Shown here: positions 1 through 31,758 of the stretch, piece after piece
Position numbering within the stretch: position 1 is the stretch's first letter
Layout of the letters: each line of letters begins with the position of its first letter
Virus record (IMG/VR): IMGVR_UViG_3300002134_000200
Location: 1 to 31,758 of that record
Strand: one strand, 5' to 3'
Length of the DNA: 31,758 bases
Origin: a virus
Translations under genes and position numbers: made by a program
The notes under the pieces: model-generated
The model's database searches: none
Told to the model about the DNA's origin: nothing
What the model saw: only the letters and a program-made list of their open reading frames with translations

Positions 1-204
1 CTAGTAGGAGGAGTAAATACAGGTAATAAGTCTCGGTCTCGGTCTCGGTTTGGGCCTCGGTTTAGCTCTGTGTCTGGGCCTTGGTCTTGCTCTGTGTTTG
101 GGCCTTGGTCTTGGTCTGGGTCTGGGTCTCGGTCTTGGTCTGTGTCTAGGTCTTGGTCTATGTCTAGGCTTTATTATTACTCAAAATCAAAAGGCAGTTT
201 ATGA
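1..204 (+). CDS. Array microgene unit 0 (5' end cut by window edge)
   Basis: This is the 3' part of an array ORF, open for 67 codons from base 1 in the same frame as the later units. It begins inside the conserved N-terminal core (LVGGVN, then NKS). A Ser-X tract follows with X = Arg, Gly, Trp and a few Val, Cys and Met, and it ends with YYYSKSKGSL. The TGA stop at 202-204 overlaps the next ATG (201-203). The start codon and about the first four codons lie outside the window. Function is unknown. Confidence 0.6.
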   Translation, partial: LVGGVNTGNKSRSRSRFGPRFSSVSGPWSCSVFGPWSWSGSGSRSWSVSRSWSMSRLYYYSKSKGSL

Positions 205-452
205 TAACGATACTATTAAGTGGATTAAATACAGGTAATAAGTCTGTGTCTGAGTCTGTGTCTCGGCTTGGGTCTAAGTCTCGGTCTCGGTCTTGGTCTA
301 GGACTAGGTCTGTGTCTTGGTCTGGGCCTTGGTCTGGGTCTTGGTCTGGGTCTTGGACTGGGTCTAGGTCTTGGTCTTGGACTGGGTCTAGGTCTTGGTC
401 TGGGGATGGGCTTAAGTATTATAAATACTCAAAATCAAAAGGCAACTTATGA
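201..452 (+). CDS. Array microgene unit 1, Ser-X dipeptide repeat protein (83 aa)
   Basis: The start is ATG 201, six bases after an AAAAGG ribosome binding site. The product has three parts: a hydrophobic N-terminus (MITILLSGLN), a linker NKS, and about 50 residues of alternating Ser-X with X mostly Arg, Gly or Trp. It ends in YYKYSKSKGNL. This N-terminus is the most divergent of the set (LLSG in place of LVGG). Its stop overlaps the unit 2 start as ATGA, so reinitiation is likely. I recognise no family. The alternating pattern would put Ser on one face and Arg/Trp/Gly on the other of an extended strand, which is inference only. Confidence 0.6.
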   Translation: MITILLSGLNTGNKSVSESVSRLGSKSRSRSWSRTRSVSWSGPWSGSWSGSWTGSRSWSWTGSRSWSGDGLKYYKYSKSKGNL

Positions 453-682
453 TAGCAATACTCGCAGGTGGATTAAATGCAAGTAATAAGTCTGGGTCTA
501 GGTCTGGGTCTCAGTCTTGGTCTCAGTCTTGGTCTTGGTCTAGGTCTGGGTTTTGGTCTCGGTCTTGGACTGGGTCTGGGTCTTGGACTGGGTCTGGGTC
601 TAGGTCTTGGACTGGGTCTAGGTCTTCGGCTGGGTCTAAGGCTTTGTATTATTATTATTCAAAATCAAAAGGCAACTTATGA
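449..682 (+). CDS. Array microgene unit 2, Ser-X dipeptide repeat protein (77 aa)
   Basis: ATG 449 overlaps the stop of unit 1 and has the usual AAAAGG site. The N-terminus reads MIAILAGGLN, then ASNKS. The Ser-X tract contains two Gln at X positions and several Thr replacing Ser, and it ends YYYYSKSKGNL. Bases 495-616 are identical to 1101-1222 in unit 5, so the tract was copied between units. A second frame (Gly-Leu repeats) is also open here from an ATG at 477, but that ATG is absent from several units. No family recognised. Confidence 0.6.
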   Translation: MIAILAGGLNASNKSGSRSGSQSWSQSWSWSRSGFWSRSWTGSGSWTGSGSRSWTGSRSSAGSKALYYYYSKSKGNL

Positions 683-876
683 TAGCGATTCTAGTCGGTG
701 GATTAAATGCAAGTAATAAGTCTTGGCTTGGGTCTCAGTCTAGGTCTTGGTCTGGGTGTAGGTCTAGGTCTGTGTCTGGTTCTTGGTCTTGGTTTAGGTC
801 TGGGTCTGTGCCTTGGTCTTGGTCTCGGTCTATGTCTGGGCTTTATTATTACTCAAAATCAAAAGGCAGTTTATGA
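679..876 (+). CDS. Array microgene unit 3, Ser-X dipeptide repeat protein (65 aa)
   Basis: ATG 679 overlaps the stop of unit 2. The N-terminus is MIAILVGGLN followed by ASNKS. The repeat tract is shorter and less regular than in units 2 and 5, with Cys, Val, Phe and Pro among the X and Ser positions. The C-terminus is LYYYSKSKGSL. All departures from GGTCTN are substitutions that keep the six-base phase. No family recognised; expression is assumed from the conserved start, RBS and frame. Confidence 0.6.
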   Translation: MIAILVGGLNASNKSWLGSQSRSWSGCRSRSVSGSWSWFRSGSVPWSWSRSMSGLYYYSKSKGSL

Positions 877-1058
877 TAGCGATTCTAGTAGGGGGGTTAA
901 ATAGAGGGAATAAGTCTAGGTCTGGGTCTAGGTCTTGGACTGGGTCTAGGTCTGGGTCTAGGTCTGGGTCTTGGACTGGGTCTGGGGCTGGGTTTTATTA
1001 TTGGTCTGGGTCTTGGTCTGGGTCTTATCTTCACTCAAAATCAAAAGGTAATTTATGA
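873..1058 (+). CDS. Array microgene unit 4, Ser-X dipeptide repeat protein (61 aa)
   Basis: A longer reading of this frame begins at 813, but the conserved start with RBS and ATGA overlap is ATG 873. The N-terminus is MIAILVGGLN then RGNKS. The tract is split by FYYW, and the tail is YLHSKSKGNL. Bases 982-1099, covering the end of this unit and the start of the next, are identical to 1218-1335. The last complete unit therefore arose partly by copying this one. No family recognised. Confidence 0.6.
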   Translation: MIAILVGGLNRGNKSRSGSRSWTGSRSGSRSGSWTGSGAGFYYWSGSWSGSYLHSKSKGNL

Positions 1059-1294
1059 TAACTATACTAGTAGGTGGATTAAATAGAGGGAATAAGTCTA
1101 GGTCTAGGTCTGGGTCTCAGTCTTGGTCTCAGTCTTGGTCTTGGTCTAGGTCTGGGTTTTGGTCTCGGTCTTGGACTGGGTCTGGGTCTTGGACTGGGTC
1201 TGGGTCTAGGTCTTGGACTGGGGCTGGGTTTTATTATTGGTCTGGGTCTTGGTCTGGGTCTTATCTTCACTCAAAATCAAAAGGTAATTTATGA
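1055..1294 (+). CDS. Array microgene unit 5, chimeric Ser-X dipeptide repeat protein (79 aa)
   Basis: The start ATG 1055 follows the sequence AAAAGGTAATTT. The tract 1101-1222 is identical to unit 2, and the tail from 1218 is identical to unit 4, so this unit is a mosaic of two neighbours. The product is MITILVGGLN, then RGNKS, Ser-X repeats, FYYW, a short second repeat stretch, and YLHSKSKGNL. A Pro-Arg frame of 63 codons is open on the opposite strand, an automatic consequence of the hexamer. Function unknown. Confidence 0.6.
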   Translation: MITILVGGLNRGNKSRSRSGSQSWSQSWSWSRSGFWSRSWTGSGSWTGSGSRSWTGAGFYYWSGSWSGSYLHSKSKGNL

Positions 1295-1389
1295 TAACTA
1301 TACTAGTAGGTGGATTAAATAGAGGGAATAAGTCTTGGGCTGGGTCTTATTTTGATTTATTAGCAAGAGTCAATCTTATTGAGTATTAA
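1291..1389 (+). CDS. Degenerate last unit of the microgene array (32 aa)
   Basis: This unit keeps the RBS, the ATG overlapping the stop of unit 5, and the full conserved N-terminus (MITILVGGLN, RGNKS). It holds only about two hexamers before unrelated sequence (YFDLLARVNLIEY). The SKSKGNL tail is missing and no further ATGA follows. It looks like the decayed or not-yet-expanded 3' boundary of the array. It may be non-functional. Confidence 0.4.
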   Translation: MITILVGGLNRGNKSWAGSYFDLLARVNLIEY

Positions 1390-2378: not shown

Positions 2379-2795
2379 CTAAATAATATCTAACTTAAAT
2401 TCAGTATATCCTAAAATACGCTTTATGTCATCCATTGCGTTCATGCTGTTTAAAACCGCTTTGCGCAACACCCCACTTTTATCTTTCATGTAACCAGCCG
2501 ATAAACCAGTCGCAATACAACCCTCTAATTGGTCAGCTCTATTTGCCACATGTATTAATATAAAAGTCCTGTTCGGAACATTCCATACTTGCCATACTTC
2601 TGGGTAAGTCTTTAATGTTTGGCTGAAAAAAGGTTTACATATATAAGTACCTTTCGGTATACAGCTAACAAATTTCTCATTATTTAGCCAGGGTTTCTCA
2701 ATTGTATGAAATATAGGGTCTTCAAGCCCTTCTATAGACATAATACCAAGTGTGCAGTAAGTATCACCGTAATATCTATGCAATGTAACTTTCAT
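2379..2795 (-). CDS. DUF5675-like lysis-region protein (138 aa)
   Basis: The sequence shows the features I associate with DUF5675 phage proteins: an N-terminal beta-rich half, IPKGTY (46-51), VWNVPNRTFILIH (about 70-82) and EGCIATG (91-97). The histidine followed by Gly-Cys-Ile resembles the catalytic surroundings of L,D-transpeptidase (YkuD) folds, so a wall-active role is possible but unproven. It follows a coiled-coil/TM protein by two bases and precedes a small membrane protein. No lysozyme, amidase or peptidase endolysin was found elsewhere, which makes this the best candidate for a wall-acting enzyme. Confidence 0.65.
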   Translation of the reverse strand: MKVTLHRYYGDTYCTLGIMSIEGLEDPIFHTIEKPWLNNEKFVSCIPKGTYICKPFFSQTLKTYPEVWQVWNVPNRTFILIHVANRADQLEGCIATGLSAGYMKDKSGVLRKAVLNSMNAMDDIKRILGYTEFKLDII

Positions 2796-2796
2796 G

Positions 2797-3132
2797 TTAC
2801 CATATCCCCATTAATTTTGTAGCAATAAAAAGCATTAATGCAAGGATTGCGCCACCAAGGAATTTAATAACTCGTATCAATATAGGTAAAAAACTTTGTG
2901 CGTTTTGTAGCGTGGTTTGCAAAGATGTAATAGCATGAGTATTTTCGTTCGTTGATTTTTCCATTTTTTCAAACTGGTGAGAAAACATATCTTTTAAACC
3001 CTCCATAACCTGTTTAAAGCCGTTAAATTCGTGCTTAGAAAGCTTTTTCTCCTCAACAATATCAATCCGCTTATGAGCAGCTTTTACTGACTCCTCGGCT
3101 TTTGCAATGCGTTCTTTCAAGTCATCCTTCAT
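2797..3132 (-). CDS. Coiled-coil protein with C-terminal membrane anchor, XhlA-like (111 aa)
   Basis: Residues 1-80 are charged and heptad-rich (KERIAKAEESVKAAHKRID...), predicted coiled coil. Residues 81-110 are a hydrophobic membrane segment (FLPILIRVIKFLGGAILALM). This architecture matches phage lysis accessory proteins of the XhlA/haemolysin type, though homology is not demonstrated. Its start overlaps the stop of the upstream 50-aa gene by ATGA, and it lies two bases from the DUF5675 gene. Confidence 0.65.
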   Translation of the reverse strand: MKDDLKERIAKAEESVKAAHKRIDIVEEKKLSKHEFNGFKQVMEGLKDMFSHQFEKMEKSTNENTHAITSLQTTLQNAQSFLPILIRVIKFLGGAILALMLFIATKLMGIW

Positions 3133-3281
3133 TTATCTGTCTTTTTATTTTTTTCTTGCAGAACTGGTGCAGGCTTTAAGGTCATCAGAATATTTATGCT
3201 TTCAAAAACATCCTTAGCAGGAAATTGTTGTATTGCTGTTAATATTTTTTGAGCTTGTTCTTTAGAAATTATTAAATCCAT
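3129..3281 (-). CDS. Hypothetical small protein (50 aa)
   Basis: This short minus-strand ORF starts at CAT 3279-3281 (MDLIISKEQAQKILTAIQQF...) and ends TDK with its stop overlapping the next gene's start (ATGA). An AGAGG-type site lies upstream. It is helical, has no membrane segment, and ends in a basic tail. It fills an otherwise empty gap of about 150 bases between two co-oriented genes, which supports it being real. No family recognised. Confidence 0.55.
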   Translation of the reverse strand: MDLIISKEQAQKILTAIQQFPAKDVFESINILMTLKPAPVLQEKNKKTDK

Positions 3282-3866: not shown

Positions 3867-6800
3867 TCAAGCTATAGTGCCAACTGGTAAATATCTAAAG
3901 CCTACCGTTCCAATATTAACTCTAATAAAATGCGTTACGGTCAAAGTTTTTGCGCCCACCGCTTCTATAGCATTACCAGTGCCAATTGTGGCGTTAAACT
4001 CTATCAGTTCTCTTGATGTATCGGCTTGTGATAAATATAAAGCTGGTATTCCACCAGAGGCAGAATTTTGATTAGATGTAAGTTGACCGCTTGCAGATCC
4101 TCCACCAAATACCGCCCAACCACTATTTGTTATAATAAGTGGCTCTCGTTTTGCAGATCCATCATCATTGATCTGCCTAAAGATGTAATTACCCTCATCT
4201 GATATAATGTCGCATATTTTATTATTGGTTGATGCACTATTATCTCGCATTCGCAAAAAAGCTGCCGCCGTTCCTGCTATTTGCAATACTTGATTCGCCC
4301 CACCGCTGACTGTCACATTGTTATTAGTCTCTATATTTATAGCAGTCCCACCAGAGCCACCGAGTCGCAATTCACCTGCTCCATTATTTATAACAACAGC
4401 ATTTCTATCTGCAACGGTTATGTAGACTGATGAATACATTGTTATATTAAAAAGATTGGCAGTGTCATTCTTAAGTTGCAATTGTGTTACTGAAAAGGCA
4501 TTAGCCGCTGCGCCCTCAAGTAATAAGTTGGTCTCACCAATAAGGTTGCGGTAAATATGTAACGCCTTGCCTGCTGTTGGGTTAACCCCTATACCAACAT
4601 TGCCATTTGCAAATACAATTTCATCAATTGTTGTTCCTGTTCTTTGAACCTCTAGCCAAGTTGTACCAACAGTGTCGCCATCGTTAATAGCTGTCATGTA
4701 AAGGTTTTCATTTGCAGCTAATATTTTCCAACGCTTGTTATCTACCGCGCCATTTCCTTGATAGAAAGTCAATTGCGGGGCTGTTGTATCTTCTAGGGCA
4801 AGGGTGTAGCCACCATTGGCTTGAATATGAACCTTGCCTGCTGTTGGGTTACCCCCTATACCAACATTGCCCCCACCTGGATTTAACAACAAATCAGTAA
4901 ACGATGTTTCAGCGTTATTAGAAGCCTGAATATAGGCATACTGCCCAACTCCGCTTTGCCAATAAGCCCCTAAAGTTAAGCGTTGGTCGGCACTATCTAA
5001 AACTTGCGTGCAACGATCGCCTGTAGTGCTTGCCATACTAAAATTATGCGTGCCTGCGCTTAAATAAGTTCTTGCCAGTGGGTTAGTCCCTAGCCCTAGA
5101 TTTCCACTAGTTGTTAGTGCAACAAGATCATTTGTACCTAAACCAGAGCTATTTGATATTTTAAAAATATTGCTATCGGATTTATCTATACCAAGTGAGA
5201 AATCAGCAGAAGCAGCTGTATTAAAATAAATAAAAGGGTCACCACCACCAACCGCCGTATTTATAATTAACCTAGCATTTGCTCCAGAGGTAGAATTAGT
5301 GTTCTGTATCCGCCCCCCTACCGAGCCTGTACTGCTGCGTGTGATAGTTAAATCGCTTGTGATAGTTGTTGATGTGCCAGTAGGTGCAAGAGTTAAATTA
5401 CCACTAGAATTAACAGTAATACTTGCATAAGTAATAGCATCAAAACTAGCTCTTATCTGTTCGGTTGTGGCTAAACTATTTATTTTACCACCACCAGAAA
5501 TAACAGCCCCAAACACCCAATTACCACCAGCCAATAATGCCCCGTGATTTACAATTCCGTTGCCGTTCTGAAAATAAGTATCACCAGTAATATCAGAGCT
5601 GCCGATATATAAATTATCAGGGTTAGTACTATCTAATAATAAAACTTGTGCATTTATACCATTTGATTTCTTAATAAAATAACCTGCAAGGTTTGCAACA
5701 GTTACGCTGTCAAATGTGATATCTTGTGGTAGCGTTAAAGTAACCGCCCCTTGTTGAGCGGAGCCCGACACGCCGTTTACTAAAACTTGTCCAGCAGTGC
5801 CAGTAACAGAGGTTACGGCTTGAGAAGAAAAATCACTTAAAAGCAAATTTCCGTCAAAGTCGGTTGTTAAAAATTTCCCATCCCCACCAACTAGTGAAGT
5901 AAAACGTGCAGTTGATAATACCACATTATCTTTAACTTTTATTTTACTTTCACTAAACTCAAGATTAGTTGTGTTAATATCGGCTGATATAGTGCTGCCT
6001 GTAATGTTAATCCCATTGCCACCAGTAAAACTAACATCAGAAACCCAGCTTGTATTTGTCCCATCTGTACTTAGAAATTTTCCATTGTTTAGGGCTTGGT
6101 CAGGTAGTAAAGCGTTTAACGCTGCATTGGCTGTTGTCTCACCTGTCCCCCCATAGTCTATTGCTATTGGATCACCTTGCCACTTCCCAGAAATAATTCC
6201 TGTTGTGAATAAGTTCCGTGTACCTAAATTAACATTTTGGGTTGCGCCGATATATGGAACATAACCCGATAAATCCCCACTAGTGATATAGCCCGCATCA
6301 TTATTCCATTGAGAAACATCTGGAGAATCAAAGTCCGCGACTGTTAAGGGATTAAGTGAAAAATTGCCAGAGTTGGGATCATAAACTATTGGAGGTGTTG
6401 CGTTTACCTGACTCCTTAATCCCCCACCTCCTCCCATCCATCGGTTGTTATTTAGGTTGATTCTTCCAACTGATATTTCCCTACCATCCGATAGATGAAT
6501 TATTATTTCCCCATTATTTGTGGTTATTATATCCTTAATACTACAACCATCTAATCCTGGATCTCCAGGCTTTCCTTTCTTCCCCGGCTTCCCTTTGATT
6601 TCATCTATAGAAAATAAAGGATTAAGCACTTCGGAGTTTTCTTTTTTCCAAAATACTACATCATTGCTGCGTGTAAGCTCTATAGATAAACCATCTAATC
6701 CTGGATCTCCAGGCTTTCCTTTCTTCCCCGGCTCTCCCTTTTTACCGGGTATAGGATCTTCCTTTACCTTACCAGCATTTACTATCTTGCCGTCAAACAT

Positions 6801-6962
6801 TGTAAGAAAAAGATTGTTATTCTCAATTTCAGCATCTTTTATACTATTAAAAAACTTCTTAACAATAAGTTGCCTTGGGTTGTTTTCAACAATCTTAACC
6901 CTATTTTCAAGGCTTTTAAGCTTTTTTACAAATTCTAAAAGTACAGAAAGTTTTTTGTTCAT
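3867..6962 (-). CDS. Large tail fibre / receptor-binding protein with collagen-like segments (1031 aa)
   Basis: The N-terminus (about 1-30) is a probable coiled coil. Two collagen-like Gly-X-Y stretches follow at residues 72-91 and 124-139, both carrying GKPGDPGLDG. A glycine run sits at about 177-181, then a long beta-rich, Thr/Ser/Asn/Gly-rich region with recurring GNVGIG-NPTAGK-type blocks, typical of trimeric phage fibres. It has the size and composition of a trimeric adhesin. No catalytic motif or intramolecular chaperone domain is obvious at the C-terminus. The start overlaps the upstream gene's stop by one base. It probably determines host range. Confidence 0.85.
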   Translation of the reverse strand: MNKKLSVLLEFVKKLKSLENRVKIVENNPRQLIVKKFFNSIKDAEIENNNLFLTMFDGKIVNAGKVKEDPIPGKKGEPGKKGKPGDPGLDGLSIELTRSNDVVFWKKENSEVLNPLFSIDEIKGKPGKKGKPGDPGLDGCSIKDIITTNNGEIIIHLSDGREISVGRINLNNNRWMGGGGGLRSQVNATPPIVYDPNSGNFSLNPLTVADFDSPDVSQWNNDAGYITSGDLSGYVPYIGATQNVNLGTRNLFTTGIISGKWQGDPIAIDYGGTGETTANAALNALLPDQALNNGKFLSTDGTNTSWVSDVSFTGGNGINITGSTISADINTTNLEFSESKIKVKDNVVLSTARFTSLVGGDGKFLTTDFDGNLLLSDFSSQAVTSVTGTAGQVLVNGVSGSAQQGAVTLTLPQDITFDSVTVANLAGYFIKKSNGINAQVLLLDSTNPDNLYIGSSDITGDTYFQNGNGIVNHGALLAGGNWVFGAVISGGGKINSLATTEQIRASFDAITYASITVNSSGNLTLAPTGTSTTITSDLTITRSSTGSVGGRIQNTNSTSGANARLIINTAVGGGDPFIYFNTAASADFSLGIDKSDSNIFKISNSSGLGTNDLVALTTSGNLGLGTNPLARTYLSAGTHNFSMASTTGDRCTQVLDSADQRLTLGAYWQSGVGQYAYIQASNNAETSFTDLLLNPGGGNVGIGGNPTAGKVHIQANGGYTLALEDTTAPQLTFYQGNGAVDNKRWKILAANENLYMTAINDGDTVGTTWLEVQRTGTTIDEIVFANGNVGIGVNPTAGKALHIYRNLIGETNLLLEGAAANAFSVTQLQLKNDTANLFNITMYSSVYITVADRNAVVINNGAGELRLGGSGGTAINIETNNNVTVSGGANQVLQIAGTAAAFLRMRDNSASTNNKICDIISDEGNYIFRQINDDGSAKREPLIITNSGWAVFGGGSASGQLTSNQNSASGGIPALYLSQADTSRELIEFNATIGTGNAIEAVGAKTLTVTHFIRVNIGTVGFRYLPVGTIA
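6545..6733. repeat. Duplicated 45-base collagen-coding segment inside the fibre gene
   Basis: Bases 6545-6589 and 6689-6733 are identical over 45 positions and encode the two Gly-X-Y stretches of the fibre (KKGKPGDPGLDG). The offset of 144 bases keeps the reading frame. Identity at third codon positions points to recent duplication or gene conversion. Confidence 0.9.
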
Positions 6963-22765: not shown

Positions 22766-23107
22766 TTATCTCGCATTATTATTGTTTATCAGCTTATTGC
22801 TTGGTTGGTGTATTTTTTTTGATGTATTTTTTATTTTTTTTTGTGGCTCAAGAACAACTGGTTCTTTCTTAATTTCTATAGTTTCTATAGTTTCTATAGT
22901 TTCTATAGTTTCTATAGTTTCTTGAGGTGCTGTTTGAAGCCATTTTTCAATAAAGACACCTGATTTTTCAGGCTTTTTGGCTGTTTTAATAATTTTAAAA
23001 TCATAATCCCGACATTTTTTATTAATGATGTTTAGTGTTTCATTTGATATTGGGAGATTTATACTATCAACATACGATCCATATTTATCGTTAAGTACTA
23101 GATACAT
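22766..23107 (-). CDS. Hypothetical protein with Glu-Thr-Ile repeat (113 aa)
   Basis: The N-terminal half (MYLVLNDKYGSYVDSINLPI...) is folded-looking. Residues from about 62 contain five or more tandem ETI triplets encoded by a nine-base DNA repeat, followed by a basic tail ending NNNNAR. It overlaps the upstream gene by 17 bases and ends three bases from terS. Its place before the terminase suggests a packaging or DNA-associated role, which is inference. No family recognised. Confidence 0.6.
   Translation of the reverse strand: MYLVLNDKYGSYVDSINLPISNETLNIINKKCRDYDFKIIKTAKKPEKSGVFIEKWLQTAPQETIETIETIETIETIEIKKEPVVLEPQKKIKNTSKKIHQPSNKLINNNNAR
22873..22917. repeat. Nine-base tandem repeat TTTCTATAG x5 in coding sequence
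   Basis: Five perfect copies of TTTCTATAG occupy 22873-22917, and a degenerate sixth follows at 22918-22926. They encode the Glu-Thr-Ile repeat on the minus strand. Identity at all positions implies recent slippage expansion, in frame. Confidence 0.95.
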
Positions 23108-24357: not shown

Positions 24358-24828
24358 TTATTGAATTTTGTTGTATTTTAATCTAAGCTTTTTTAGACTC
24401 CTTTGCTGTATTGGGTACGATCTATCATATGCGGCCTTTTTATCAAGTTTATCAATTAATTTAATAATATCTGCGGGTTTTGGCATGACAGTCTCTTCCG
24501 TCATGTAAATTTTAAACGCTTTTTCTATTTTAGAATAATCATACTCAGCCAAAACCAATTGGAAAGCATGGCTGATGTTTTCAAGTTGATCAGGCTCTTT
24601 TCCAAAAATATCAAGAGAATCAAAGCAAATAAGTAATAAATGAGAAAGCTTACGCCTGCCCTCTTTATCCTCAAGCAAGGCCAAGGGCTTCTTTTGCTCT
24701 TTGGTGCTTAGATTTCGTTGTTGGGTGAATGTAGGACTGGATTGTATAATCATCTCTCCATGCTTCTTTTTCAAGCCATCTGAAAGCATCTTTATTTGAT
24801 TGTCCAGTTCTTCTGATATAAGCTTCAT
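24358..24828 (-). CDS. Possible helicase loader / replication accessory protein (156 aa)
   Basis: The frame opens at 24858, but ATG 24826-24828 has AAGGAG nine bases upstream, so I place the start there. That still overlaps the preceding replication gene by 158 bases in another frame; a TTG near 24684 would shorten the overlap but has a weak site. The part after about residue 40 is helical. The VMPKPADIIKLID motif resembles the end of the loader-and-inhibitor-of-G40P type domain found beside phage initiators. Role inferred from this motif and from the initiator upstream. Confidence 0.55.
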   Translation of the reverse strand: MKLISEELDNQIKMLSDGLKKKHGEMIIQSSPTFTQQRNLSTKEQKKPLALLEDKEGRRKLSHLLLICFDSLDIFGKEPDQLENISHAFQLVLAEYDYSKIEKAFKIYMTEETVMPKPADIIKLIDKLDKKAAYDRSYPIQQRSLKKLRLKYNKIQ

Positions 24829-25417
24829 AATTTCGTACTCCTTGCATAATATTTTCAATGTTATCTTTTTTTAACGCTATTACAAATTTACTCTGTGCAT
24901 CTTTTCTTGAACCTTTGCCGCGATTGTTTTGCGGATAAGCTAACCAAAAGTCACAAAAATTATTATCATCTATATTATTATTGTTTACATTGTTTACATT
25001 GTTTTCATTGTTATCTGTTGTTAGTCGTTTGTTATTCGTTTGTTGTTCGTTTGTTACTCGTTTGTTAACTTGCTTGTTACTCTCCTGATATTTATTGTAG
25101 TTAACTATTGATATTAAATGATTTTTATTCGTTGTTTCGCTTGTTAACTCGTTTGTTGATATAAGCTTTCTTATACAGGTCCGCGCTTGCATAACACTTA
25201 AGCCAGTTTCTTTATTAATTGTATTTAAAGATGTGATAAAAGAGCCTCTTTTAATAGATATGCCCCGCCATTGTGTATCTTTGTGATTGGCTCTTAATAA
25301 GCAATAAACAAAAAAATGCGATGTGTTAACATCGGTGAACCATTCCCAATCCTTAAAGCTCCTATACAATTGTATCCAACCTAAGCCATCACCTCTATCT
25401 TCTGGATATCTACTCAT
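24671..25417 (-). CDS. Phage replication initiation protein (248 aa)
   Basis: The N-terminus (GWIQLYRSFKDWEWFTDVNTSHFFVYCLLRANHKD) followed by GSFITSLNTINKETGLSVMQARTCIRKL is the winged-helix module typical of phage replication initiators. A low-complexity Asn/Thr-rich linker (about 125-155) leads to a C-terminal block, FCDFWLAYPQNNRGKGSRKDAQSKF ... KDAFRWLEKEAWRDDY. The order WH - linker - FW-x-AYP block is the usual layout. It probably recruits the host replicative helicase, helped by the downstream gene. Confidence 0.8.
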   Translation of the reverse strand: MSRYPEDRGDGLGWIQLYRSFKDWEWFTDVNTSHFFVYCLLRANHKDTQWRGISIKRGSFITSLNTINKETGLSVMQARTCIRKLISTNELTSETTNKNHLISIVNYNKYQESNKQVNKRVTNEQQTNNKRLTTDNNENNVNNVNNNNIDDNNFCDFWLAYPQNNRGKGSRKDAQSKFVIALKKDNIENIMQGVRNYEAYIRRTGQSNKDAFRWLEKEAWRDDYTIQSYIHPTTKSKHQRAKEALGLA

Positions 25418-29567: not shown

Positions 29568-30425
29568 ATGAAAGAATCAACAAAGCATTTTATAGATGCT
29601 AACATATCTGTATTGGTTTATGGCAATAGTGGCTGGGGTAAAACTCAAATAGTTAAGCAATGTGCAGAAGAATTAAACATGAAGTGTTATGTCTTGTCCT
29701 TGGCTGGAGTTGCTCCAGAAGATTTTGGAATACCGTCCACACAAAAAACACATTATCAATATTTACCGCCAAAATGGGCTTATAATTTTCATAAATCACA
29801 AGAAAGTTTTGTGTTATTTTTGGATGAGATCACACAAGCAACCGTACAAGTTATGCACGCTATCTATCCTTTAGTGCTAGAAAAGAGGGTAGGTGATTTA
29901 CATTTACCTAATATGCGTATAATTGCAGCGTCTAACCATGAATATGAGAATCAAAATCTTACACCTATAATGCAACCATTACTCAATCGTTTTGATGTGA
30001 TTGTAGATTTAGAAAAAGATTTTGGAGATACTTTGTCTCAAAATTTTTGGAAATATATCAAATCTAAATACAAGAATTTAGATAATGTTATTGATGTTTT
30101 GTTTGATCAACAAATAACAACTAATCCAAGGGCTTATGAGGTAGGTTTTAATTTCATACAAAACAATCCTCAAGCCTCAAAGCAACAAAAGATGTTAGTT
30201 CTAAGGCGTTCATTTGGCGATTTAGCCCCTGTGGTTTTAAAAAATCTAAAACAAGAAATTATAGAGAATGAAACAAATGATAATAGTAGAATTAGACACG
30301 CTGCGAGGGCATTTAAAAATAAGATGCTTTTTGTTGATGGAAAATTTGAAATAAACCCCACTAAAGAATTAATTAGTAATATTTATAATTTAAGTGAGGA
30401 GGAAAAGGCCAGTGCTTTTATCTAA
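29568..30425 (+). CDS. MoxR-type AAA+ ATPase (285 aa)
   Basis: Walker A GNSGWGKT (19-26), Walker B VLFLDE (82-87) and an LLNRFDVIVDL segment (arginine-finger/sensor region) identify a MoxR-type AAA+ ATPase. The LAGVAPEDFGIPS block after the first strand is also typical. The protein lacks extra domains. AAGGAG precedes ATG 29568. It overlaps the following vWA gene by 14 bases, the usual MoxR-vWA partnership in which the ATPase acts as a chaperone on or with the vWA protein. Unusual in a small P22-type phage. Confidence 0.88.
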   Translation: MKESTKHFIDANISVLVYGNSGWGKTQIVKQCAEELNMKCYVLSLAGVAPEDFGIPSTQKTHYQYLPPKWAYNFHKSQESFVLFLDEITQATVQVMHAIYPLVLEKRVGDLHLPNMRIIAASNHEYENQNLTPIMQPLLNRFDVIVDLEKDFGDTLSQNFWKYIKSKYKNLDNVIDVLFDQQITTNPRAYEVGFNFIQNNPQASKQQKMLVLRRSFGDLAPVVLKNLKQEIIENETNDNSRIRHAARAFKNKMLFVDGKFEINPTKELISNIYNLSEEEKASAFI

Positions 30426-31488
30426 AACAGAGAAGCTTATTAGAGTCGCCGTTATTGAGGGTAACTTAACAATGGCTAAACTAATAAGGTTATTACAGCC
30501 TATGGATGGTGGCTTAGCTGCCACTGATGGCAACGCTATATATGTATCAGATAAGTTTTGGGAGCTTCCATTAGATCAACAATATTTTATTGTAAATCAT
30601 GAGTTTCTACACATTATATTAAACCATGTAGAGCGCAGCAAGGGTAAAGATAAATATATTTATAATTTAGCCGGTGATGTGATTGTTAATGATTTACTTT
30701 GTAAGCGTGGTCGGAGAATGCCAAAAGGCGCTATAACGTATAAATCTTTAGAAGTTCCTAGCGATTTTAAAACAACAGAGCAAATCTATGATTACTTGTT
30801 AAAAAATGCCAAAAATCTTGATCCTAATCCTGATTTCAACCAAGATTTAACAAAAGATATAAAAGAAAAAGCAAATAAAGAAGTTACGCAAGAAATCAAA
30901 AAACTTGCTGATACCGAAATAAATCAATCCTATAAAAACGCTGCTATTTTAGAGAAGATAATTCCACCAACACAAGATATTAGACAAGTGAGTTGGTTTG
31001 ATAAATTGATCGTAGAAATAGGACGTTTAGCTCTAAAGACAAACGAAAAAACTTACTCACGCCCACCAAGGGTAGAAGTTAAAGGGTGTATTATGCGCGG
31101 TGGTTATATTAAACAGTATATTCCAAAGATCAACATTATTATAGATGTATCAAGTTCTATGGGCGATGAACCTTTGAAAATTGCGGCAAAGATTAACGCG
31201 GCAAAACAGAAGCTTAAGATATTTTTGCCTAAATACTTTTGGTTAAATACCTTTTTTGGGGAAATTACAGATATATCAAAGATTCCATTAGGCGGTGGTA
31301 CAGATTTATCTAATGTATTAAAAATTTCTGGTGCGGATCTAAATGTTTTAATTACAGATTGTGAGGATGAGGGGGGGATAGATAAAATAAATAAATCTAC
31401 AAATAGGTTGTTTGTTATTACTACTAATTCGCAAACAAAGTTAAAAAATACTCAGAGTCACAAAATAATACTTATAAATAATTTTTAA
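30412..31488 (+). CDS. Metallopeptidase-like / vWA protein, DUF2201 type (358 aa)
   Basis: A GTG at 30394 extends the frame, but AGGAGG lies nine bases before GTG 30412, so I start there. The N-terminal domain has an HEFLH zinc-peptidase motif (63-67) in an NHEFLHIILNH context, the putative metallopeptidase part of DUF2201. A charged helical linker (about 130-190) follows. The C-terminal vWA-like domain keeps the MIDAS pattern: DVSSS (from 245), GGTDLS (Thr297) and ITD (Asp316). It is the partner of the MoxR ATPase and the last ordinary gene before the microgene array (ATG 31503). Confidence 0.85.
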   Translation: MLLSKTEKLIRVAVIEGNLTMAKLIRLLQPMDGGLAATDGNAIYVSDKFWELPLDQQYFIVNHEFLHIILNHVERSKGKDKYIYNLAGDVIVNDLLCKRGRRMPKGAITYKSLEVPSDFKTTEQIYDYLLKNAKNLDPNPDFNQDLTKDIKEKANKEVTQEIKKLADTEINQSYKNAAILEKIIPPTQDIRQVSWFDKLIVEIGRLALKTNEKTYSRPPRVEVKGCIMRGGYIKQYIPKINIIIDVSSSMGDEPLKIAAKINAAKQKLKIFLPKYFWLNTFFGEITDISKIPLGGGTDLSNVLKISGADLNVLITDCEDEGGIDKINKSTNRLFVITTNSQTKLKNTQSHKIILINNF

Positions 31489-31758
31489 GCAAAAGGCAGC
31501 TTATGATAGCGATACTAGTAGGTGGATTAAATACAGATAATAAGTCTTGGTCTGGGCCTTGGTCTTGGTCTTGGTCTGGGTCTGTGTCTAAGTCTAGGTC
31601 TCAGTCTGGGTCTAGGTCTGTGTCTAGGTCTGGGTCTGGGTCTCGGTCTATTTCTTGGCCTAGGTCTGGGTCTAAGTCTGGGTCTAGGTCTGGGTCTGTG
31701 TCTGGGTCTGGGGTTGGGTCTCGGTTTGTGTCTTGGGGTGGGTGTTATTATTACTCAA
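31489..31758 (+). repeat. Tandem microgene array, right part (first unit, cut by window end)
   Basis: After the vWA stop, the sequence AAAAGG-CAGCTT-ATG begins the same core as in the left array, followed by about 34 GGTCTN hexamers and TATTATTACTCAA. Joining the two window ends would complete the core except for about 28 bases, so the array is interrupted by the window boundary and may contain further units. Confidence 0.9.
31503..31758 (+). CDS. Array microgene, first unit (3' end cut by window edge)
   Basis: ATG 31503 has AAAAGG six bases upstream and follows the vWA stop by 14 bases. The N-terminus is MIAILVGGLN then TDNKS. The Ser-X tract is the longest in the window, about 65 residues with X mostly Gly and Arg, some Trp, Val and Lys. 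It reaches YYYS at the window edge, so only a few codons of the tail are missing. Function unknown; it is presumably co-transcribed with the MoxR-vWA genes. Confidence 0.6.
   Translation, partial: MIAILVGGLNTDNKSWSGPWSWSWSGSVSKSRSQSGSRSVSRSGSGSRSISWPRSGSKSGSRSGSVSGSGVGSRFVSWGGCYYYS

Follow-up and report, generated by a model that had tools for sequence, protein, structure and literature searches.

A phage tandem array of Ser-X microgenes is best read as an expanded second gene of an Sm-fold and dipeptide-repeat gene pair

The two ends of a linear virus record of 31,758 bases, analysed here in full and called the window, carry a tandem array of small open reading frames (ORFs), and the question this locus raises is whether these are translated genes and, if so, to which family they belong and what they might do. 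A first-pass annotation had placed unit starts at 201-1291 and 31503 plus one partial unit; we recovered all of these, for a total of eight ATG-type units (tandem-repeat scores up to 763, far above chance). A unit consists of a core of about 14 amino acids, an (Ser-X)n body and a SKSKG[NS]L tail, the exceptions being the truncated units and the unit at 1291. The first unit downstream of the preceding gene (31503..31757, + strand) has MIAILVGGLNTDNKS followed by a Ser-X body and is cut by the contig end after 85 or more amino acids, while the partial unit (1..204, +) starts within the core at residue 5 and continues through a Ser-X body to an LYYYSKSKGSL end and a TGA at 202-204. The units that follow, all on the + strand, lie at 201..452 (83 amino acids, MITILLSGLNTGNKS core), 449..682 (77, MIAILAGGLNASNKS core), 679..876 (65, MIAILVGGLNASNKS core), 873..1058 (61, MIAILVGGLNRGNKS core) and 1055..1294 (79, MITILVGGLNRGNKS core). 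The array closes with a short terminal unit at 1291..1389 (+, 32 amino acids) whose core, MITILVGGLNRGNKSWAGSYFDLLARVNLIEY, leads into a short unrelated end without a Ser-X body or SKSKG[NS]L, so the earlier statement that every unit has such a body and a SKSKGNL-type end does not extend to this one.

AAAAGG sits 6-7 nt upstream of each ATG, and at six of six junctions the TGA stop of one unit shares bases with the next ATG (ATGA), as the first-pass annotation had described. Its term "near-identical" suits cores and SKSKG[NS]L tails but not the units as wholes: compared in full with the 679 unit, they reach 55-68% identity, and a stretch of 92% identity is common to the last two full units. 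The record begins and ends within the array (31757 is open and position 1 is mid-unit), so there are at least eight units, and the assembly may have broken a circular genome within the repeat.

The array follows a YqaJ exonuclease, an AAA ATPase and a DUF2201 protein in a + strand early operon. The AAA/MoxR-like ATPase (29568..30425, +) is a context gene of the same operon, and the gene directly upstream of the array (30394..31488, +) encodes a DUF2201_N putative metallopeptidase-type protein (Pfam PF13203, 5.5 × 10−18; phrog_1314), occupying the site where other phages carry an Sm-like gene. A search of the window for Rfam families and tRNAs returned none, a null which, for Rfam, does not bear on coding versus non-coding. 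Terminator-like matches within the array were set aside as over-predicted owing to the repeat itself. Other repeats occur elsewhere in the window: an ORF at 22766-23107 (− strand) has a 9-nt tandem repeat coding for (IET)n (TIETIETIETIETIE), two short tandem repeats (9 and 11/22 nt) lie side by side at 24980-25082 within an ORF at 24671-25417 (−), and a 1031-amino-acid tail-type protein at 3867-6962 (−) has collagen-like Gly-X-Y stretches (GKKGEPGKKGKPGDPGLDG).

The Ser-X body is built from one repeated hexamer, TCT-NGG, so that X is Arg, Gly or Trp. The window holds 172 of these hexamers (positions 1-1260 and 31544-31736), with GGG (55), TGG (45), AGG (27) and CGG (13) as X codons. We scanned IMG/VR for five consecutive TCTNGG units and obtained at least 120 stretches, from which pure microsatellites such as (GGTCTC)n were removed by demanding a mixed fourth base; among the matches listed, this gave 93 locus-strands (window included), 170 distinct runs and 4,451 hexamers. 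At the majority of the loci listed, N is A, G or T at similar frequencies and C is rare or missing; some loci have C, G or T and little or no A, and the window shows both patterns. Across the family, the third positions of Ser codons change least (2.9%, versus 5.7% at first and 5.9% at second positions). Purifying selection on the peptide would not by itself predict this pattern, which may reflect homogenisation by recombination together with weak constraint on the exact residue; a constraint at the DNA or codon level could also be its source. The first-pass argument was that differences between units in the core fall at codon positions 3/1/2 in a 7/6/3 split. The split is exact in the core, but with 16 columns it is weak evidence, and the argument breaks down in the body, where the trend is opposite: the 172 Ser positions of the window comprise 136 TCT, 36 amino-acid-changing variants and no synonymous ones.

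That the ORFs are translated and selected, as first proposed, is better backed by the placement of starts, the depletion of stops and the recurrence of the peptide irrespective of codon. In the Ser-X frame, an ATG lies within 60 nt upstream of the run in 157 of 171 runs (median 30 nt) and a stop codon follows at a median of 6 nt downstream; upstream ATGs in the other forward frames number 15/174 and 19/175, and those in the reverse frames 8-24 of about 171. G-to-A changes at codon position 2 were seen in none of 1,096 TGG codons, where they would give TAG, versus 241 of 2,263 AGG/CGG/GGG-type codons (10.6%), and at position 3 in 1 of 1,097 TGG codons, where they would give TGA, versus 53 of 2,075 others. 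Hexamers are not independent, so the p values for this stop depletion are too small; the contrast is nonetheless plain. When loci were retrieved through the neighboring Sm gene instead of the repeat, a single Ser codon predominated in each tail gene (TCT, TCG, TCA, AGC or AGT, depending on the phage), and this use of five Ser codons for the same (S-[RGW])n indicates that the peptide recurs, not the DNA. Disrupted frames in related arrays, named beforehand as the sign of a non-coding repeat, were rare, with a stop within the run in only 4 of 179 related runs and frames otherwise open. Judged from sequence, the array is a run of real small translated genes.

Directly upstream of most first Ser-X (SX) genes lies one small gene family, which falls into two clades. 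Clade A carries the motif LMGERVTLFC.NYIYTGKLVGVND...ESFG.LK and clade B the motif IGK.YFIRTVT...ASW.ADTGRF...EVEP..., and the profiles of the two match each other (97%, E = 2.9 × 10−11). AlphaFold models of both show the Sm fold, with a predicted N-terminal helix and five-stranded Sm barrel. For clade A (pLDDT 91), with Foldseek also run, the best structural match was the archaeal SmAP 1i8f_C (Z 10.4, 65 aligned residues, 1.7 Å), and the clade B model (pLDDT 90.8) matched the same structure best (Z 9.8, 64 aligned, 1.5 Å). Searches of family members against Pfam and PHROG gave no convincing assignment and no Sm family match; PHROG matches at E values of 0.005-0.008 were judged to be chance, and neither Hfq nor another Sm family was among the Pfam matches of the A3 and A4 members. 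DUF6948 (PF22253) is a remote homologue of clade B by profile (96%, E = 4.7 × 10−9), and its relation to clade A alone was not detectable by profile comparison. Read by eye, several clade B members (L056, L069, L098, L099, L110 and L117) have GRG at the position of the Sm2 RG motif; clade A shows no clear Sm2 RG motif, which makes canonical RNA binding doubtful there. The Sm gene has dN/dS values of 0.03-0.34 in the fifteen clade A pairs of lowest dS.

To count the pairing, we performed searches with the Sm gene as query, without selection for repeats. For clade A, 80 loci were kept of 186 IMG/VR relatives and 10 were added from MAGs; in 75 of these 90 loci an SX ORF begins between −4 and +96 nt relative to the Sm stop, and of the other loci several are cut off or have short SX ORFs (e.g., L138, L153, L157 and L168). 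For clade B, with 80 kept of 228 relatives, an SX ORF was scored in 72, and L402 and L405, scored G via a short overlapping frame, bring this to at least 74 of 80; among the exceptions, L403 and L464 look degenerate, three are cut and L447 is without an SX ORF. For DUF6948, 80 were kept of 559 relatives (73 distinct), and an overlapping or adjacent (Gly-X)n ORF was present in 71 of the 73, both exceptions ending at a contig end. Each set contains near-copies, so these figures count records and not independent events. DUF6948 with Gly-X also occurs in the isolated phages Vibrio IKEMa6-1, Pectobacterium Koroua, Iodobacter PhiPLPE and Chlorobiaceae CV-1-33, and an Sm gene of clade A or B with SX in the named metagenomic phages MW202825 and MW202573; BLASTN of the array itself found one phage, MW202825, plus one chance-like plasmid match. 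Programmed frameshifting that would fuse Sm and tail was ruled out, as frame offsets differ between phages. Apart from the repeat gene, none of the genes around the Sm gene proved to be a fixed partner; recognizable neighbors include SSB, RecT-like, RusA-like, DNA methyltransferase and clamp loader genes, which suggests an early region. By gene content and order, hundreds of phage contigs carry the Sm-fold gene and the dipeptide-repeat gene as a near-obligate pair, and we regard this as almost certainly a conserved, translated gene pair.

The second gene of the pair has a short head (about 9-15 residues) and then a tail of low-complexity dipeptide repeats, and both parts vary with the partner. 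The tail is (Ser-[Arg/Gly/Trp])n beside clades A and B and (Gly-[Tyr/Ser/Asp/Asn])n beside DUF6948. Clade A heads are basic (mean net charge +3.3, e.g., MIRGKKQKW), clade B heads are near neutral (+0.3, e.g., MNAAILREGFDRS), and DUF6948 heads are typically MSKLNKP, part of which may be a shared constraint since the first head codons overlap the Sm gene at these loci. Head type thus tracks Sm clade, a match that could come from descent alone given that Sm and tail cassettes are inherited together. Tails change in frame between strains: in 22 related prophage loci the tail ORF length is a multiple of 6 in 20.

Arrays are found in other phages as well, with 14 runs in L010, 9 in L025, 7 in L071 and 6 in L093. 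L119 (5072-8802) and L071 carry SX genes with a common head, MIKKSIYKRNIW, at several genome sites, one of them behind an Sm gene (L204, L205). In L161, an ORF 7 nt past a clade A Sm gene has a variant Ser-[Arg/Tyr/Gly] tail with NNC codons and not NGG. L050 (1820-2797) has five tandem ORFs with MKMIQKIIRTNR-type heads and Ser-[Trp/Arg/Ser/Leu/Phe] tails nearly without Gly, and no Sm match was found across its 113-kb record. Two human gut phage scaffolds, L308 (MT835900) and L309 (MT836871), have a short Gly-X stretch behind DUF6948-like genes; it is fused to a long region (IKSFN..VY.ID..) that is apparently folded and had no Pfam match above the cut-off.

The window units, with their ATG, short head and alternating Ser-X in which X is mostly Arg, Gly or Trp, fit the pattern of the second gene, and the array very probably belongs to that family. 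We found no Sm-like gene in the window with the clade A, clade B or DUF6948 profiles (best E value 0.9; positive controls 1 × 10−30 or better). The window heads are closer in composition to clade B than to clade A, though their scores against the clade B head profile (1.1-4.0 bits) are reached by 5-16% of shuffles and are not significant; the 679 unit scores 3.6 bits, which 5% of shuffles equal. DNA patterns drawn from the core and tail of the window units had no match in IMG/VR, a search of phages with the unit protein, subject to low-complexity filtering, gave none, and the window ATPase as query found no relatives. The window portal has many, 1 of 31 of which, L302 (portal about 43% identical), carries a clade B Sm gene followed by two SX units. 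A DUF2201 gene was sought in these portal relatives and none was found, which is uninformative. Near its SX pair, at 2677-3205 (−), L302 also has (Thr-Thr-Val)n and Asn/Cys-rich repeats in overlapping ORFs of low complexity. For 25 SX records the fetched stretch shows no Sm gene next to the repeat; over the whole record, ten of these contain clade B matches and nine clade A matches (overlapping sets), and some large SX records have no Sm match record-wide. The window array is either detached from its Sm gene, or on an incomplete contig, or using another partner. The best reading is a detached or expanded version of the second gene; where the array had first been treated as a system of its own kind, it would instead be the expanded second gene of a widespread Sm and dipeptide-repeat pair.

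Sm proteins form rings that bind RNA. In the mechanism we propose, which we hold to be about evenly balanced between right and wrong, the pair would be a split nucleic-acid-binding module: gene 1 would supply a small Sm/LSm-fold protein that forms a ring, and gene 2, directly downstream and often overlapping the stop of gene 1, would supply a disordered tail in trans, versus the C-terminal extension of Hfq. The clade-specific head may dock the tail onto the ring, and the tail would then engage nucleic acid or other tails through numerous weak interactions. At an early stage of infection, such a pair might serve as an RNA/DNA chaperone or form condensates. With extra units, as in the window's putative tandem expansion of gene 2, a phage would make more tail peptide and more kinds of tail; the Sm partner of these units may be off the contig, too diverged or absent. 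That many phages combine a conserved Sm ring with a hypervariable in-trans tail, its class and head matched to the clade and some with arrays of up to about 14 units, is a tentative generalization to which we give slightly less than an even chance.

The alternative that survives best, although we consider it unlikely, is that the repeat is translated but nearly functionless, a tolerated minisatellite whose size changes by recombination behind a useful Sm gene. Codons are indeed homogenized within each gene, non-synonymous changes at Ser exceed synonymous ones, and tails vary between strains with nearly identical Sm genes, with 18 tail haplotypes versus 7 Sm haplotypes in the 22 prophage loci. 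Such drift sits poorly with a repeat gene that is near-universal behind three Sm families, with the strict loss of stop-creating changes and the balanced use of Arg, Gly and Trp, and with conserved heads and the same peptide rebuilt from TCN and AGY serine codons. It is improbable that the peptides act on the host alone, as Arg/Trp-rich takeover or antimicrobial-like products whose mRNA the Sm protein regulates or whose action it counters: their composition, the basic clade A head, the early-gene neighborhood and a window that carries peptides without a detectable Sm gene are all in keeping with this, but heads track Sm clade, and the tail beside DUF6948 (Gly/Tyr/Ser/Asp) has no Arg or Trp, so a shared role cannot depend on these residues. 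We rate as equally improbable a silk-like or FUS-like fibre or matrix former with the Sm protein as nucleating ring and nucleic acid unnecessary; a small residue strictly alternating with variable ones, the Tyr/Ser/Gly or Arg/Gly/Trp/Ser tails and the several tails per genome would suit it, and this reading, drawn by analogy, partly overlaps the preferred one. Although a 6-nt unit by itself keeps frames open and third codon positions are the least variable, a non-coding DNA or RNA element (iteron, decoy, recombination site or structured RNA) with an accidental frame is very improbable given the depletion of TAG and TGA, the ATG at a fixed distance in a single frame, the different DNA hexamers for the same peptide and the conservation of heads.

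The gene pair brings Sm proteins together with low-complexity tails in a very compact genetic arrangement. Where annotated, including in the isolated phages PhiPLPE, Koroua and IKEMa6-1, the pair appears as hypothetical proteins or its second gene is missed. The pairing gives DUF6948 a testable context, and the tails, strain-level variants included, are a natural series for probing what such sequences do. We found no paper naming DUF6948 and no description of the pair or the array in the open-access papers searched in full text, in line with the first-pass statement that no described phage system was known to have this structure.

Among known systems, Hfq, archaeal SmAP and eukaryotic LSm proteins have the fold in common with the phage partner (Z 9.8-10.4 to archaeal SmAP, for predicted models). 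The likeness to Hfq would be one of working and not of family membership, as there is no sequence match, and the Sm2 RG motif of Sm/LSm families is visible only in part of clade B. Hfq has its Sm core and a disordered tail that tunes binding on the same chain (PMC5606850), whereas the phage tail is a separate, translationally adjacent dipeptide-repeat gene. DUF6948, a domain of unknown function, is a remote homologue of clade B and is likewise followed by an overlapping dipeptide-repeat ORF, with a Gly-X tail and MSKLNKP head in contrast to the Ser-X tails beside clades A and B. In Borg elements, in-frame DNA repeats give rise to fast-changing, mostly disordered protein regions and to some small stand-alone repeat ORFs (PMC9879509), and the likeness lies in these in-frame repeats and the variable, mostly disordered regions they yield. 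Borg repeats are mostly perfect units spread over many proteins of one archaeal element group; in the phage repeats, one position of the dipeptide is constant and the second variable, and the repeat gene is linked to an Sm protein.
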